This document shows, in pieces, positions 10,060 through 59,953 of a stretch of 64,000 nucleotides of DNA; positions within the stretch are counted from its first letter, which is position 1, and every line of letters begins with the position of its first letter. The translations under genes and the position numbers were made by a program. Source of the stretch: Chitinophagaceae bacterium (GTDB taxonomy: Bacteria; Bacteroidota; Bacteroidia; Chitinophagales; Chitinophagaceae); contig JAIXOJ010000216.1 of NCBI GenBank assembly GCA_027486835.1, forward strand, positions 1 to 64,000, read 5' to 3'. A model generated the notes under the pieces. It saw nothing but the letters and a program-made list of their open reading frames with translations, was not told the DNA's origin and made no database searches.

Positions 10060-11043
10060 ATGTTCGCAGTAAAGCCCAAAACCCTGCACCATTGGTACAA
10101 ATCTCAATTGAGTGGTTATAAACAGTCGGTAAAGGCAGGTACATGGGGCGATAAAGCAATAAAGATATTGGATGAGCATACGGGTGAGATTTTGAAACAA
10201 AAAGCTGTTCCCATCGCCAAGCCGGAGAACATGGGCAGCCACATGGCCATAGATGAAAAACAGGTGGGCAAGAAGATGTACACACTGATAACGAACATCG
10301 AGACAGGTAAAATTGCCTTCATGGCACAAAGTATAAAGTCATCTGAAATAGCGCAAGCCATCCATGAATACTTAGGGGGGACACTAGGTGCCGTCAAATC
10401 AATGAGTTGCGATATGGCAGCATCTTTCATAAAGTTGTCCAAAGAAGTTTTTTTAAACGCCAATTTAGTAGTCGACAAGTTCCACGTTATCAAGCACCTG
10501 ATGGATGCCCTACAGCAAGTGCGCAGGGAACTAAAAACGGAATGCCTCAATAAGGAAACAAACGTTCCGAAAAAAGCAGGAGGGGTAAATAAAAGTGAGG
10601 AAGAACGAATGTGGACTGATGCAGAAATGTTGGAACGAAGTAGGTATGTTCTGGTAAAATCGGAGATAGAATGGGATGACGAAGAAAAGGAAATCATGGC
10701 GGATTTATTCAAAAAATATCCAGTTCTGAAGACGGCTTATTCCCTCACACAGGACTTGAGGAAGTGGTACGACAAATCAAACGTAGGTAAAAGAAAACAG
10801 GAGATGGAAAAAGAATTTGACGACTGGTGCGCGGCAGTCAATAAATCTGGAATCAACCCGTTCAAAGCCGTAAGGAAAATGATGGAGAAACACCTAGGGG
10901 ATATCCTAAACTACTTCTTAGAGGGAAAGACCAGTGCTAAGGCTGAAAATATGAATGGTAAAATACAACGCTTTTTGGCCAATAATTTTGGAATAATCGA
11001 TAGAGATTTCTTTTTATACAGGCTCGCAGGGTACTTCTCCTAG
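10060..11043 (+). CDS. ISL3-like DDE transposase
   Basis: 327 residues from ATG 10060. Catalytic residues likely include D65 in AIDEKQVG, the Asp of VVDKFHVIKH (near 140) and the Glu of AENMNGKIQ near the C-terminus, as in the ISL3 DDE fold. An N-terminal TLHHWYKSQL segment looks like the end of a DNA-binding region. The frame is open upstream to at least 10003 and overlaps the first reading frame in the +1 (or -2) phase at a T7A4 run, so the active form may be a frameshift fusion. The stop lies inside the right inverted repeat. Confidence 0.9.
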   Translation: MFAVKPKTLHHWYKSQLSGYKQSVKAGTWGDKAIKILDEHTGEILKQKAVPIAKPENMGSHMAIDEKQVGKKMYTLITNIETGKIAFMAQSIKSSEIAQAIHEYLGGTLGAVKSMSCDMAASFIKLSKEVFLNANLVVDKFHVIKHLMDALQQVRRELKTECLNKETNVPKKAGGVNKSEEERMWTDAEMLERSRYVLVKSEIEWDDEEKEIMADLFKKYPVLKTAYSLTQDLRKWYDKSNVGKRKQEMEKEFDDWCAAVNKSGINPFKAVRKMMEKHLGDILNYFLEGKTSAKAENMNGKIQRFLANNFGIIDRDFFLYRLAGYFS

Positions 11044-11085: not shown

Positions 11086-11280
11086 TTTTTCCAAAAATTC
11101 ATGTAACATTTCAAAAAATCTTTGAAACGTTTCAAAAAATTCGTGAAACGTTTCAAAAAATTCGTGAATCGTTTCAAATAAATCGTGAACCATTTCAAAT
11201 AAATAATGAACCGTTTCAAAAAAACAATGAACCGTTTCAAAAAAATCTTGAAACGTTTCAAAAAATCTTTGAAATGATTT
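11086..11280. repeat. 21-bp tandem array B
   Basis: Nine units of exactly 21 bp, typically CGTTTCAAAAAA, four variable bases, then TGAAA plus one variable base. Successive units create GTTTCA...TGAAAC dyads. Both strands have long open frames, explained by the 3n period. It lies between the insertion sequence and the MATE gene (177 bp before its ATG). Confidence 0.92.
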
Positions 11281-13011: not shown

Positions 13012-13083
13012 GGTCTCATAGTTCAATGGATAGAATAGAAGTTTCCTAAACTTTAGATACAGGTTCGATTCCTGTTGAGACCA
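13012..13083 (+). tRNA. tRNA-Arg (anticodon CCT)
   Basis: 72-nt cloverleaf. The acceptor stem GGTCTCA pairs with TGAGACC, followed by discriminator A and no encoded CCA. The anticodon stem GAAGT/ACTTT encloses loop TTCCTAA, anticodon CCT. The T arm contains GGTTCGATTCC. It reads AGG codons. No partial copy of its 3' end was noticed elsewhere in the window. Confidence 0.96.
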
Positions 13084-13088
13084 CAAAC

Positions 13089-13212: not shown

Positions 13213-14112
13213 TCAATTGCAAGAGCGCATTAAAAACAGTAGCTTAATGATTAATAATATTATCCAAAAGAAATTTTTGAAACTAATTTCTTCGGAGGAT
13301 TTAAATGAATAGTCAGACTCTATAAGGTATAGCCCTTTTAGTCTTACAATATGGTCTTTCAAGTCTTGGGGTAGATTGTTCAATTCTATTAGCTTACCGA
13401 CAATGGCAGCGCAATCGCTTTTACTAGTGTTTCGAATTTTGATAGAGGTATTAATCAACCCTATCACCATATCTGTTTTTAGTTGGTATAAATCATCGGG
13501 CAGCATATTAAACATCCTATCCCAACTTTCGTATATCCAAGGGTGTAGCTGGGTGCTGAATAATTTTACATTGTCATTGTTCAGATTGGCGAAAAGTTTC
13601 AATGCTTCTTCCAAAAAGATTTTGATGGGTTTGAACGCTTCTTCTCTATCCCCCCCTTTTAAGAAGTCTTCAAATGCTAATAATTCTGACAGTTTGATTA
13701 AGGCATAATTTCCTGGTTTTAATAAACTTCTGCTGCAAATAGCAAAGGAGGTTTTAAAATAGCTAGAAAAGAACATGTCAAAATGAGGGTCGTTTTCAAA
13801 CTGTCTGAATTCCTGCACTATTAGAAAAGAGGTATCCGTCACTTCGTTTTTTTCTAACAATTGCAGAATGCCCTTGCTGTTCCAAAGCTTGATATGGTAG
13901 GGCAGCCGTGCAGCAAAGTCGCTTCGCTCTATTTCTTCTAATACATCCTGCTTGCTGTAGCTAAATTCATTTATTTGAATAAAGCCATCAGTGCTGTGGC
14001 TAAAGCCTATAAGTAATAGTTTCTTTAGCCGTTGAAAATCTATTTCGCCTGAGTAATCGAATCCGCAGTCTTCTATCAGGCGTACGATGGAGATATATTG
14101 TGTATTAGCCAA
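13213..14112 (-). CDS. Membrane-anchored protein of the Hsp70 operon
   Basis: 299 residues, family not recognised. An N-terminal alpha/beta region (about 1-105, including DFAARLPYHIKLWNSKG) is followed by a helical region. Residues about 279-295 (FFWIILLIIKLLFLM) form a single C-terminal hydrophobic segment followed by RSCN, so the protein is probably tail-anchored with its bulk in the cytosol. There is no signal peptide and no J-domain HPD motif. Its start overlaps the end of the Hsp70 gene by 8 bp, which implies translational coupling. It may recruit the Hsp70 to the membrane; that role is inferred only from context. Confidence 0.75.
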   Translation of the reverse strand: MANTQYISIVRLIEDCGFDYSGEIDFQRLKKLLLIGFSHSTDGFIQINEFSYSKQDVLEEIERSDFAARLPYHIKLWNSKGILQLLEKNEVTDTSFLIVQEFRQFENDPHFDMFFSSYFKTSFAICSRSLLKPGNYALIKLSELLAFEDFLKGGDREEAFKPIKIFLEEALKLFANLNNDNVKLFSTQLHPWIYESWDRMFNMLPDDLYQLKTDMVIGLINTSIKIRNTSKSDCAAIVGKLIELNNLPQDLKDHIVRLKGLYLIESDYSFKSSEEISFKNFFWIILLIIKLLFLMRSCN

Positions 14113-16642
14113 TGCCGGTTCCTTTAAAATAATCGTTATTGTTTTCTCTTGCTATATTCAATAATGAGGAAATGCTGAATACATGCCTCCTGAATTCAAA
14201 ATAGCGTTGATTTTCTAAAGCCGTATCTGCCATTTTAAAGAGGGCTCTTGCCGCATTCGCATCTTTATAATAAGCGGAATCCAATGCTTTAAATTCTACG
14301 AATCGGGTTATCAAAAAGCTGGTGGTGTTGGACAGAGCCTGCCAATGCAAATCGTCAAGTTGCTTTATTTTATTTTCCACCACAGAAATGCTTTTTGAAT
14401 TTAAGACACTTGATTCGGTTTGTTCAATCTTACGCAATACTTTATTCAGTTCCTCCTTTTCAAAGTCTGCTTGGTTGATGGTATGTACTATGTTTTCCTT
14501 CAAGTAAAAATAGTTTTCTATCAACTGCGCCATTCTTTCATTACCCCCCAGCCGATCATATTCCCTAGAAATCCGGGTAATTTTTTCGGCCAAAATGTAT
14601 TTTTCATCAGATTTGTCTTGGGGTTTCAAGGCAAATAGTTTTTCTCTTAACGCCCGCAGACCATCGAGCACCGATGCGGCTTTAATTTCCCAAATCTCAT
14701 CACTATTCTGTTGAAACTCCCTGATGGTACCCACCAATTCGTTTTCTAATTGTAGGTACTGCTCCTTTATCCTATCTAAGTCAATTATTTTTTCTGAAAT
14801 GGCAAAGACATTTTTAAACTCCTGCTGGGTCATTACCAAAAAAACTTGTGTGTGCAACACCCTTGAATCGGTCAGGTGAATTTGAATTTCAATATCAGAT
14901 CCTTTAATTAAATCTGTCTGCAAATCTTTTCCCGAAACGGTGATACATCCAATGGTCAAATTAGAAGAAGGTCTGGCGTCACCGTCTCCCTCCATTATGT
15001 TAATAGTAATGGCATCATCGCTTCCCTTTTTGATGGTTTTTGAAATTTCTCTGTAAAGGGTTCTTTTTTGAGGCAATAAGGAGTTTCGTTGGAAAATAGT
15101 TTCCAGCTTAGTGGTATTGTTGGCCACATCGTCTACTTCAATTGATATGTCGTGCGGAAGTGGTTGGCCATCAATGTTGTATATGCCTTGTGTAATGGTT
15201 ATCTCTTTTTTTAAAGTGGTAATTTCTTGTCCAGCGGCATCATAAATCTGCAAGAAAAATTTGTTTTCCATACCAGTCAGTAACGGGAGAAATTCAGATT
15301 TCTTGGCACGAACTGGCATCAAACCAGTATCAAAACCACCATCGGTACGCACTATCCGGTAAGTTTTCTTTTCTAACTGACCTGAACATGCAATCATCAA
15401 AACCTCCTCTTTGTCTTTGGTGGAATGCGCATGTTTTAGCTCCACTTCAATGTCTGTAGGCTCATAAGCAATGCTAGTGAGCAACTCATTCACCCGCTGT
15501 TGTTCTTCCGCCGAAATTCCCGCGGGTACTATAGGTGTAAATTGCTTATTGGCAGCATAATAAGCCGCCCCAACGGCCACGCAAGTGGTGGGGTCTACAG
15601 CATAGTTCAGCGGGATACCTGTTTGCAATTGTAGCTGCTCGCGCACCTGTGGCAAAAAAGTACTTCCGCCTACCAGAATAATTTCATTGATGTCTGTAGG
15701 TTTTAGTTGCTTATTTTCCAGTATGTTGTTCAATAAAAGAATGGTTTCGTTAACGAGTGGTAGAAAGATGGTATCTAAATCACCTCTAGAAATCGGTATT
15801 GCAAAATCGTATCGCTTACCATTTAGTTCTGCAGCAAAATCAATGGAGGTAGATGGATAGCTAGACAGTTCTTTCTTAGCTTCTTCGGCATAATACATTA
15901 CTTCATAAAACAGCTTTTCATACATGCCATGTTTAACCCTAAACTGTTCTTCAAAGTCTGCAATACCTGTTTGACGAATGATTTCTGGGACCACTATTTT
16001 GTCTATGATGGCAAAATCAAAATCTAACCCACCTAGAAAATTATTGCCTTCATGATTGATTATTTTTAATTCATCGCCTTTATTCTCAACCAAAGCCACA
16101 TCAAATGTGCCGCCACCAAGGTCGTACACCAACCAATAGCCTTCTTTCTTTGCTGTTATTTCGCCATTATTAAAGAATGCAAGACAAGCTGCAATGGGTT
16201 CCTGGAGTAATACTACCTCTTGAAAACCAGCTTGCTGTCCTGCTCTTAAGGTGGCATTGCTTTGCATACTATCAAAAGAAGCAGGTACGGTTATAACGGT
16301 GGCCAAAGGCTGGTCTTGCGGGGGGAGGAATTTTTTCAACTCCCTTAGTACCAATGTTGATAATTCTACAGGTGTAACATTGTCGTCGATATTCACCACA
16401 TAGTATTTTTCATCTGTCCCCATCTTCCGCTTAAACCCAGAGAAAACATTTACTGCATCTTTGGTTAGGTAATCTCTTGCTTTATCTCCAATCATAATAC
16501 GCTCAGGCCGGTAAGCTACCACAGAGGCTAATGTTTCTTTCTGCCCTATTGGATTCTTATACACTTGTACTTTTCCTTGGCTATACTTTGCAATGAGCGA
16601 GTTAGTGGTGCCGAGGTCTATACCAAAATTGAAGGGTTGCAT
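14105..16642 (-). CDS. Divergent Hsp70/DnaK family protein
   Basis: 845 residues against about 640 for DnaK. The actin-like nucleotide-binding domain (about 5-370) has all ATPase motifs: GIDLGTTNS at 7-15, VYDLGGGTFDV near 172-182, and LVGGSTFLPQV near 323. A beta-rich region follows (about 375-600) in the position of the substrate-binding domain. The C-terminal 190 residues are predicted helical and longer than the DnaK lid, with no DnaK-type EEVD-like tail. It lacks adjacent dnaJ or grpE, so it is a specialised Hsp70 rather than the housekeeping DnaK. It is the middle gene of a three-gene operon (16 bp gap upstream, 8 bp overlap downstream). Confidence 0.93.
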   Translation of the reverse strand: MQPFNFGIDLGTTNSLIAKYSQGKVQVYKNPIGQKETLASVVAYRPERIMIGDKARDYLTKDAVNVFSGFKRKMGTDEKYYVVNIDDNVTPVELSTLVLRELKKFLPPQDQPLATVITVPASFDSMQSNATLRAGQQAGFQEVVLLQEPIAACLAFFNNGEITAKKEGYWLVYDLGGGTFDVALVENKGDELKIINHEGNNFLGGLDFDFAIIDKIVVPEIIRQTGIADFEEQFRVKHGMYEKLFYEVMYYAEEAKKELSSYPSTSIDFAAELNGKRYDFAIPISRGDLDTIFLPLVNETILLLNNILENKQLKPTDINEIILVGGSTFLPQVREQLQLQTGIPLNYAVDPTTCVAVGAAYYAANKQFTPIVPAGISAEEQQRVNELLTSIAYEPTDIEVELKHAHSTKDKEEVLMIACSGQLEKKTYRIVRTDGGFDTGLMPVRAKKSEFLPLLTGMENKFFLQIYDAAGQEITTLKKEITITQGIYNIDGQPLPHDISIEVDDVANNTTKLETIFQRNSLLPQKRTLYREISKTIKKGSDDAITINIMEGDGDARPSSNLTIGCITVSGKDLQTDLIKGSDIEIQIHLTDSRVLHTQVFLVMTQQEFKNVFAISEKIIDLDRIKEQYLQLENELVGTIREFQQNSDEIWEIKAASVLDGLRALREKLFALKPQDKSDEKYILAEKITRISREYDRLGGNERMAQLIENYFYLKENIVHTINQADFEKEELNKVLRKIEQTESSVLNSKSISVVENKIKQLDDLHWQALSNTTSFLITRFVEFKALDSAYYKDANAARALFKMADTALENQRYFEFRRHVFSISSLLNIARENNNDYFKGTGIG

Positions 16643-16658
16643 ACGTTGTTGTTTATTA

Positions 16659-16967
16659 CTATTCTACAATCACTACCGCTTTCTGTATTAAATGCAGTCC
16701 AGTTTCATTTTTTTGGTAAATAATAGGTTTTAAGGTCTTGGTAATGCGCATTTTGTTAGCAATTCTTCCCACAATATTAGCCTCACAATCGGTTCTAGAT
16801 TCCGAATAAGATTCTCCTGTGGGATCATGTATCACGAAGTTTTCTTCCTCAAAAATGTTATTGACCCTATTAAAGTTCCTTTCAAACATGGATTCTTTAT
16901 CCATGTCGGCTATTTTGCTCTTTATCTCAAAAAATTGATTGACTAATTTGACTAGATTATTCGTCAT
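16659..16967 (-). CDS. Small first gene of the Hsp70 operon
   Basis: 102 residues, family not recognised. Residues 1-45 look helical (LVKLVNQFFEIKSKIADMDK). The rest looks beta-rich and ends VVIVE. It sits 16 bp before the Hsp70 gene and must be cotranscribed with it. Its size, helix-then-beta order and position would fit a nucleotide-exchange or co-chaperone factor, but no GrpE signature is visible, so this is only a suggestion. Array C lies about 190 bp upstream. Confidence 0.65.
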   Translation of the reverse strand: MTNNLVKLVNQFFEIKSKIADMDKESMFERNFNRVNNIFEEENFVIHDPTGESYSESRTDCEANIVGRIANKMRITKTLKPIIYQKNETGLHLIQKAVVIVE

Positions 16968-17157: not shown

Positions 17158-17346
17158 TGGAGTACTTCCGAAGTCAGTCGTAGCTCTACAGAAGCTAGCC
17201 GTAGAGCTACAGAAGTTGGCTGTAGCTCTACAGAAGTTAGTTGTAGGGCTACCGAAGCTAACTGAAGCGATAAGGGAGTCAGCTGTAGAGCTACAGAATC
17301 TAACTGTAGAGCTACGGAAGCCAGTTGTAGCGCTATAGAATTGCCA
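17158..17346. repeat. 21-bp tandem array C
   Basis: Nine units of exactly 21 bp, typically TGTAGAGCTACAGAAG followed by five variable bases. Each unit carries the dyad TGTAG-NN-CTACA. It begins about 190 bp upstream of the Hsp70 operon and ends 3 bp from the truncated DinB gene. Confidence 0.92.
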
Positions 17347-17349
17347 AAA

Positions 17350-17598
17350 TCATTGAACCCAAGTGCTTATATCTTCAAACCTACCTTGCCATAAAGGTTC
17401 AAGATCAATTAGGTGTCCAACATTTTCTTTGATTGACCAAGTATCATCAATTCTCTCTGTCAATAAGGTGGAATTTATTCCTTTGAATTTATCTTCAAGT
17501 CTTAAAGGGGTACCTGAAAGCCTTTCAAGAATAGAAGGGAAAATATTTTGATCTAAGGCAAAATCAAATTTTCTGTTGAACCATTTTATCTGTTGCAT
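17350..17598 (-). pseudogene. DinB-family protein, 5' fragment
   Basis: 82 residues against about 150-170 for the DinB superfamily of four-helix metal-binding proteins. The segment WSIKENVGHLIDLEPLWQGR matches the region around the first metal-ligand histidine. The frame stops right where array C begins, and no continuation is seen beyond the array, so the 3' half appears to be lost or replaced. It might still be translated as a short protein. Confidence 0.7.
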
Positions 17599-27042: not shown

Positions 27043-27263
27043 TCCTTTTGAGGCTGCTAAGCTCCCTTTTGAGGTTGCTAAATGCCCTTTTGAAGCAACC
27101 AAGCTCCCTTTTGCAGCATCTAAGTGTCCTTTTATAGCATCTAAGCTCCCTTTTTGGGCAACTAAACGCCCTTTCGCAGCTTCTAAGAGCCCTTTTGAGG
27201 AATCTAACTGCCCTTTTGGAGCAACTAAGCTCCCTTTTGCGGGATCTAACTGCCCTTTTGCCC
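27043..27263. repeat. 21-bp tandem array D
   Basis: Ten full units of 21 bp plus a partial one. The constant blocks are CCCTTTTG at positions 1-8 and CTAA at about 15-18. Positions 9-10, 13-14 and 19-21 vary. Both strands are open because of the 3n period. It lies between divergent units, about 330 bp before the esterase-like gene. Confidence 0.93.
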
Positions 27264-47470: not shown

Positions 47471-47770
47471 CGAATTTGGGGTTTCTCAAGTTGAAATACC
47501 CTGCGCCAGCCGGAAATGGGGTTTCACAACTTGTGAAACTTTGCGCCAGCCGGAAATGGGGTTTCACAACTTGTGAAACCTTGTGCCAGCCGGAAATGGA
47601 GTTTCACAACTTGTGAAACCTTGTGCCAGCCGGAAATGGGGTTTCACAACTTGTGAAACCTTGCGCCAGCCGGAAATGGGGTTTCACAAGTTGTGAAACC
47701 TTGTGCCAGCCGGAAATGGGGTTTCACAAGTTGTGAAACCTTGCGCCAACCAGAAATGGGGATTCGCAGC
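47471..47770. repeat. 40-bp palindromic tandem array E
   Basis: Seven units of exactly 40 bp plus a partial unit. Each has GTTTCACAA, one central base (C in most units, G in the last two) and TTGTGAAAC, a perfect 9+9 palindrome, separated by the 21-bp linker that contains GCCAGCCGGAAATGGG. The end units are degenerate. The units lack spacer diversity, so this is not a CRISPR. Located in divergent intergenic DNA. Confidence 0.95.
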
Positions 47771-59314: not shown

Positions 59315-59953
59315 TTGACTTTCCCAAATCATTACCAAACGTTGCAGGTAGCCCCTACTGCAACAATGGAGGAAATAAAAAAAGCCTACCGTAAACTCGC
59401 CTTACGCTTTCATCCCGACAAAGCGGGCAGCGATGAATCTACCCTTGCTGCTTTTAGAGCCATCAAATCAGCTTATGATGTATTGATAAACAGCAAATCC
59501 AGACAAGCATATCACGCTAAATATTTTTACCACACCACCCCTCCTAAACCAACACTTACTGCCAATGAATTGGCAGATAAAGCCAAAGCATTAGCTGCTT
59601 TTGTTCGTTTGCTCGATCCCTTTAGAATAGACTATGATTTGTTGACGCTTGAAATAGCGCAAATTGTAAATCCGGAGGCTGTACGAATCTTTAAAAACAC
59701 CAAAGAATTATTTCTAATCGAGGGTACTATCAATTCTATATTGGCATGTTTAGCATTGATGCCATATAAAATTGGAATTCCCTTTCATGCAATGCTATTA
59801 TCCATTTCCGAAAACCATGCGATGTTGCTTATTTCCACCAAGTTACAATTGAAAAAACAGCAGCGTATTGATTGGTGGCAGCGTAAAAAGCCATTATTAG
59901 CCCTAGTTGTGGCATTGCTGATTTGCTTGCTGATGTATTGGGCAGCTAAATAA
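59315..59953 (+). CDS. J-domain protein with C-terminal membrane anchor
   Basis: 212 residues from a TTG; no ATG is better placed. The N-terminal J domain (about 4-66) has HPD in ALRFHPDKAG, so it can stimulate an Hsp70. The middle is helical. Residues about 191-210 (LLALVVALLICLLMYWAA) form a C-terminal transmembrane anchor. Lacks the zinc and substrate-binding domains of DnaJ. Its Hsp70 partner is not shown; a divergent Hsp70 lies 43 kb away. Confidence 0.9.
   Translation: MTFPNHYQTLQVAPTATMEEIKKAYRKLALRFHPDKAGSDESTLAAFRAIKSAYDVLINSKSRQAYHAKYFYHTTPPKPTLTANELADKAKALAAFVRLLDPFRIDYDLLTLEIAQIVNPEAVRIFKNTKELFLIEGTINSILACLALMPYKIGIPFHAMLLSISENHAMLLISTKLQLKKQQRIDWWQRKKPLLALVVALLICLLMYWAAK

Follow-up and report, generated by a model that had tools for sequence, protein, structure and literature searches.

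Textbook Hsp70 machines need J-proteins. Three types of bacterial Hsp70 are usually distinguished: DnaK, HscA and HscC. HscC (550-580 amino acids [aa]) is considered to work without GrpE and with true J-proteins; the Escherichia coli J-proteins DjlB and DjlC are tail-anchored and linked to HscC, with the plasma membrane as their proposed site of action (PMC8215388). In Myxococcus xanthus, MxDnaK2 (MXAN_6671) shares an operon with the GrpE paralogue MXAN_6672 (PMC11019930). Hsp70s are also found in the GTPase-centred GAP1-N2 conflict systems, which combine HSP70, GrpE and DnaJ-FNIII and occur mainly in actinobacteria and firmicutes (PMC7159879), and in the CoCoNuT systems, where the ATP-binding motifs of the Hsp70-like CnuD are degenerate and the protein is associated with McrBC (PMC11090510). 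The stretch examined in this study (64,000 nucleotides of contig JAIXOJ010000216.1 from a Chitinophagaceae bacterium; hereafter, the window) contains a three-gene operon encoding a 102-aa protein, an 845-aa Hsp70 and a 299-aa tail-anchored protein. We propose that this triad is probably a self-contained, specialised Hsp70 machine at the inner membrane, with a private nucleotide exchange factor and a membrane partner that is not a J-protein.

Judged by likeness, the nearest functional analogue of the triad appears to be HscC with DjlB/DjlC, and the nearest precedent for a private exchange factor appears to be MxDnaK2. As with HscC, a specialised Hsp70 is genetically linked to a tail-anchored partner and action at the membrane is proposed; unlike HscC, the Hsp70 is approximately 830-850 aa long with an inserted region, a GrpE-like exchange factor is linked to it, and no J domain could be detected in the partner. 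MxDnaK2 likewise places an Hsp70 paralogue and its own exchange factor in one operon, but MXAN_6671 and MXAN_6672 are described as DnaK and GrpE homologues recognisable by sequence, and a tail-anchored partner is not mentioned in the portion of the source considered here (PMC11019930). The GAP1-N2 systems also bring an Hsp70 and an exchange factor together in one neighbourhood, but their GrpE is ordinary and their GTPase component was not seen at the triad. CnuD is similarly a non-canonical Hsp70 in a gene system outside housekeeping, whereas the catalytic residues tested in the triad Hsp70 are invariant and its neighbourhood shows no recognisable McrBC. No description of the triad family was found in the literature searched, a set without most subscription journals.

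The operon and its parts lie in the window as follows.
16967-16659, minus strand: gene of the 102-aa protein
16642-14105, minus strand: gene of the 845-aa Hsp70 (PF00012, E=4e-59, nucleotide-binding domain only; catalytic residues invariant in 58 family members)
15551-16627, minus strand: nucleotide-binding domain of the Hsp70 (PF00012 over residues 6-364, E=4e-59)
15128-15547, minus strand: inserted region of about 140 residues between the nucleotide-binding domain and the beta part of the substrate-binding domain (SBD-beta), from the DnaK alignment
14840-15106, minus strand: SBD-beta-like domain (profile-profile match to DnaK SBD-beta)
14108-14125, minus strand: conserved Hsp70 tail KGTGIG ([TLIV]-G-[ILFV] at the extreme C-terminus)
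14112-13213, minus strand: gene of the 299-aa partner (conserved N-terminal cytosolic helical region and C-terminal tail anchor)
13231-13287, minus strand: transmembrane segment of the partner, residues 276-294 (Kyte-Doolittle 2.09)

A check of the open reading frames (ORFs) found the three genes on the minus strand in the order and with the sizes that the original prediction had given, including the 16-base-pair (bp) gap between the 102-aa and Hsp70 genes and the 8-bp overlap at the junction of the Hsp70 and partner genes. The partner gene starts with TTG, preceded by an AAGGA-type ribosome site, and this start is credible because the closest homologue begins at the same residue (MANKQYISIVRLL in locus L051 versus MANTQYISIVRLI).

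The triad is a real unit, with linkage far beyond chance. When 84,980 species genomes were scanned with the 102-aa protein (an alignment of four homologues) as the sole query, 80 loci were kept, and 79 of these had an Hsp70 of the same type (approximately 830 aa) directly behind the small gene. The partner, sought near these loci with two mutually homologous profiles (hhalign probability 99.5, E about 1e-22), was found at most 400 bp away in 70 of the 80 loci, and several of the partner-less loci are short contigs. Both proteins flanking the Hsp70 thus co-occur with it across genomes, as expected of a system. Four arrangements of the partner gene were observed (convergent in 26 loci, co-directional upstream in 18, co-directional downstream in 13 and divergent in 13); since its neighbourhood has been kept through all four, selection appears to act on the linkage, which is more than inherited gene order. 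Pairwise distances of the three proteins also co-vary (Mantel r 0.83, 0.88 and 0.80, P=0.001), although these correlations show only that the three travel together, because they include no species-tree control.

The triad is kept together across many Bacteroidota genera, and all three genes are present on a conjugative Pseudomonas plasmid, where the partner is fused to tetratricopeptide (TPR) repeats. At the scale of the genus and of the phylum sample, the operon is accessory and patchy: within the genus, it was found in one of 13 genomes, the window's own, and in an even sample of the phylum, it was found in seven of 395. On plasmids of proteobacteria and Haliscomenobacter, more distant cousins retain the Hsp70, and the proteobacterial ones also have a small gene in front of it that is related to the 102-aa gene (E=7e-5). 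These cousins add AAA+, TerB or peptidoglycan-binding proteins, and their third components differ from the 299-aa partner.

The 102-aa protein had no Pfam, NCBIfam or PADLOC family match, and no match in 50,697 phage records. The GrpE model PF01025 was not reported for it at E<=1, nor was it among the 25 families listed for 60 of its homologues. By eye, the C-terminal end (GESYSESRTDCEA ... LKPIIY ... VVIV) resembles the GrpE beta wing (GxxFDPxxHEA ... VLRPAxVxV). A single-chain AlphaFold2 model built with 60 homologues (predicted local distance difference test [pLDDT] 94) contains two short helices, the first spanning only residues 2-21, and a six-strand beta wing. In a fold search of the PDB, ranks 1-11 were all GrpE chains, DnaK-GrpE complexes among them, with a best match at probability 0.99, a template modelling (TM) score of 0.61 and about 10% identity. 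Profile-profile comparison with GrpE was collinear and, by itself, weak (E=0.017). The family thus resembles GrpE in its predicted short helices, its C-terminal beta wing and the pairing of its gene with an Hsp70, but differs in length (approximately 100 aa versus approximately 190 aa for GrpE), in missing the long N-terminal dimeric helix, in identity and in escaping the Pfam GrpE model. We conclude that the 102-aa protein is a candidate cryptic, shortened GrpE-type exchange factor; nucleotide exchange by it is predicted because of its fold and its linkage to the Hsp70. Two other identities were set aside: formimidoylglutamate deiminase (NCBIfam E=0.01), which scored 14.8 bits against a cut-off of 654, and a vacuolar transporter chaperone hint from a PDB sequence search (E=0.074). 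No clear assignment to an unrelated known family, which would have spoken against a system, was thus obtained.

The triad Hsp70 combines an intact catalytic core with a divergent architecture. The claim that its ATPase motifs are intact is borne out by the alignment to DnaK: D8, T11, T12, K70, R71, E171, D194, T199 and D201 are invariant among 58 family members. The protein falls well below the NCBIfam cut-offs for DnaK (202 bits versus 648 for NF001413 or 823 for TIGR02350) and for the HscA equivalog (201.5 versus 708.6 bits). The insertion occupies the place of the DVLLLDV linker, no linker motif is present in the 58 sequences, and the inserted region is not itself an SBD-beta by profile comparison (P=0.24). 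Behind it, the SBD-beta region matched DnaK SBD-beta in a targeted profile comparison (P=1.5e-4; controls 0.08 to 0.8), while no Hsp70 came up when the C-terminal region served as query for a PDB profile search; an extended helical part follows. Clients are therefore proposed to bind through a conserved but re-linked substrate-binding domain. In a separate observation, an order mate without any J-domain match (genome G037, contig C238, L224) contains adjacent open frames of 1278 and 716 aa with Hsp70-like stretches.

These features also bear on the possibility that the operon is a redundant DnaK/GrpE paralogue pair of the M. xanthus DnaK2-GrpE2 kind, next to which the membrane protein is incidental. 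A bicistronic grpE-dnaK paralogue operon does have precedent (PMC11019930), but in the present case no family model recognises the exchange factor as a GrpE, the Hsp70 architecture differs and 70 of 80 loci have the partner as a neighbour, which makes this explanation highly improbable.

In DnaK, we take Y145, D148, R151, R167, N170, T173 and E217 to be J-domain contacts or part of the signal relay. The window Hsp70 carries the replacements Y145S, R151S, R167V, N170Q, T173I and E217K (E. coli DnaK numbering), and across the 58 sequences, all seven positions have changed, including N170 (Q in 56), T173 (I or V) and E217 (K or R in 54). By sequence, the usual J-protein docking site thus seems to have been lost from the family. 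In contrast to these changes, K/R55 is kept in 48 of 58 members and E267 in all 58, and the Hsp70 is therefore predicted to depend on an exchange factor and not to make standard use of a J domain. In DnaK, a K55-E267 salt bridge slows ADP release, and HscA, which is independent of exchange factors, is without it (PMC8215388).

The 299-aa partner matched no known family. Its AlphaFold2 model (single chain, pLDDT 91.9) is almost entirely helical with a small beta hairpin, and a PDB fold search found no convincing relative among solved structures. The C-terminal hydrophobic segment noted in the original prediction is real and conserved: a transmembrane segment is present in 85 of 92 homologues examined, lying at most 15 residues from the C-terminus in 25 of them, while other homologues run about 200 residues past it, on what is presumptively the periplasmic side. 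Such anatomy is the same as that of DjlB and DjlC, the tail-anchored J-proteins of E. coli HscC (PMC8215388), and the N-terminal helices of the partner (9-15, 26-38, then from 54) loosely recall a J domain. The partner could, then, be a tail-anchored J-protein that has diverged beyond recognition, with the triad running the usual cycle of J-protein, Hsp70 and exchange factor at the membrane. However, profile comparison of the partner with J domains gave P=0.45, HPD occurs near the N-terminus in only five of 97 homologues (scattered, and not after helix II), no J-protein was among the listed top 50 fold matches, and R167, N170, T173 and E217 have been lost from the Hsp70. Profile, motif and fold accordingly all speak against a J domain, although the partner may still contain one that has diverged very far, and we regard the HscC-like explanation as unlikely. 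As an observation on its own, the window also encodes a DjlB/DjlC-like tail-anchored J-protein about 43 kilobases from the operon (59315-59953, plus strand; 212 aa). It has a clear J domain at its N-terminus (PF00226, 76 bits) and ends in a hydrophobic tail; genus mates without the Hsp70 operon have J-domain matches of similar size.

The extreme C-terminus of the Hsp70 is conserved as well. Among full-length family Hsp70s, 72 of 74 end in [TLIV]-G-[ILFV] followed by at most two residues, compared to 15 of 847 among the remaining ORFs at those loci (P=3e-89, a value that overstates independence because the sequences are related). The EEVD tail is a docking peptide of eukaryotic Hsp70, and by analogy, the conserved tail suggests a docking peptide here. 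Certain family tails (KIGF, RKVGF or LGLK) are reminiscent of I/L/M-G-F, the tripeptide that docks Clp ATPases on ClpP (PMC9753991); the strict form [LIV]-G-[FL] fits only 27 of the 74. In plasmid cousins whose Hsp70 is tail-less, an adjacent AAA+ protein ends in IGFI, IGFV or IGFKP, a tail of the kind found on the Hsp70s of the main family. The AAA+ genes with such ends beside cousin Hsp70s are the following.
L013, 10503-11855
L014, 10485-11921
L018, 10485-11933
L011, 12514-14328
Since the IGF, VGF or LGL tails are like the ClpP-docking tripeptide, a direct hand-over from Hsp70 to a protease at the membrane is possible.

Together, the co-occurrence of the triad, the GrpE-like fold and the single-pass membrane partner favour the earlier idea that a dedicated chaperone is equipped here with a cofactor of its own and a tether to the membrane. 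In the proposed mechanism, the Hsp70 would hydrolyse ATP and bind clients through its re-linked substrate-binding domain on the cytoplasmic side of the inner membrane, and the 102-aa protein would serve as its private GrpE-type exchange factor. The tail-anchored protein would recruit the Hsp70 to the membrane and perhaps activate it, probably replacing a J-protein as docking or activating factor, and it may recognise the conserved Hsp70 tail or the remodelled J site. The three proteins would thus interact physically, and their clients may be membrane or envelope proteins. It is also important to note the points that weigh against this mechanism. The remodelled J site comes from an alignment and not from a structure, and the partner is taken to stand in for a J-protein because no J domain could be detected in it. 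Furthermore, there are other J-proteins in the genome, and the Hsp70 might be served by one of them; the likeness to GrpE is confined to the fold (Foldseek E=0.03; profile E=0.017); and the Hsp70 loop equivalent to the GrpE signature is two to three residues shorter in 17 of 58 members. Independence of the Hsp70 from J-proteins may be supposed from the altered contacts, and a fully J-free machine, in which a rebuilt J site and linker answer to a non-J activator or recruiter in the membrane, a minimal GrpE resets the cycle and the C-terminal tail docks a further component, is offered only tentatively and seems somewhat doubtful.

The original prediction had raised possible roles in envelope stress, which may apply here, and in defence; some observations on the wider family point towards the latter. 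The spread is patchy, as described above; proteobacterial plasmid cousins lie near BREX, Zorya and restriction genes or inside Tn7-like elements; and a conflict class with Hsp70, GrpE and DnaJ has been published (PMC7159879). The triad could accordingly be an anti-phage or inter-bacterial conflict system, with the Hsp70 machine sensing or disarming invader proteins at the membrane. However, PADLOC returned no matches for any of the three triad proteins, no PADLOC family matched more than three of 118 neighbouring proteins, so that inspection of the neighbours yielded no recurrent defence family, and the Flavobacterium copies sit in a conserved neighbourhood of housekeeping genes. Moreover, the cousins have AAA+ and peptidoglycan-binding proteins in place of the 299-aa partner. 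A conflict function for the triad is thus improbable; the cousins may have a defence role, but the evidence does not support one for the close relatives in the Bacteroidota. Separately, a TerB-family gene (150-180 aa) is linked behind the Hsp70 in a sub-group of loci (L089, L093, L094, L099, L123 and L011), which includes a Haliscomenobacter locus next to BREX.

The operon lies, as first described, between a tRNA gene and a repeat array.
13012-13084, plus strand: tRNA-Arg(CCT)
17179-17340: repeat array with a 21-bp period
This tRNA was the only match in an Rfam scan, and promoter and terminator scans gave signals no more than expected by chance. An insertion junction could not be drawn by empty-site comparison with genus mates, because their MATE and DsbA genes are conserved but non-adjacent and have no tRNA nearby. 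Upstream of the MATE gene in the window, an ORF resembling an ISL3-type transposase (10060-11043, plus strand) suggests past mobility of the region. The array beside the operon is one of several unrelated tandem arrays with a 21-bp period, mostly outside long genes (84-306, 11088-11266, 17179-17340 and 27044-27260), and a similar array lies behind the MATE gene of a genus mate (L199, about 1752-2018); such arrays look like a genus-wide habit. Next to the array at the operon is an 82-aa ORF (17350-17598, minus strand), by look a truncated DinB-type protein. Elsewhere in the window (47477-47765), a 40-bp repeat occurs seven times at 92% likeness, with a palindromic core (TTTCACAACTTGTGAAA).

These findings account for conserved "hypothetical proteins" beside "Hsp70 family protein" genes in many genomes, and the 102-aa family would add a cryptic GrpE family missed by standard profiles. 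With about 100, 845 and 300 residues, the triad is small and genetically compact test material. Specialised Hsp70s are thought to shed the exchange factor and keep the J-protein, whereas the triad family appears to have done the opposite, keeping a stripped-down exchange factor and losing the J site. If this is true, the J-protein, deemed the brain of every Hsp70 machine, would be replaceable.

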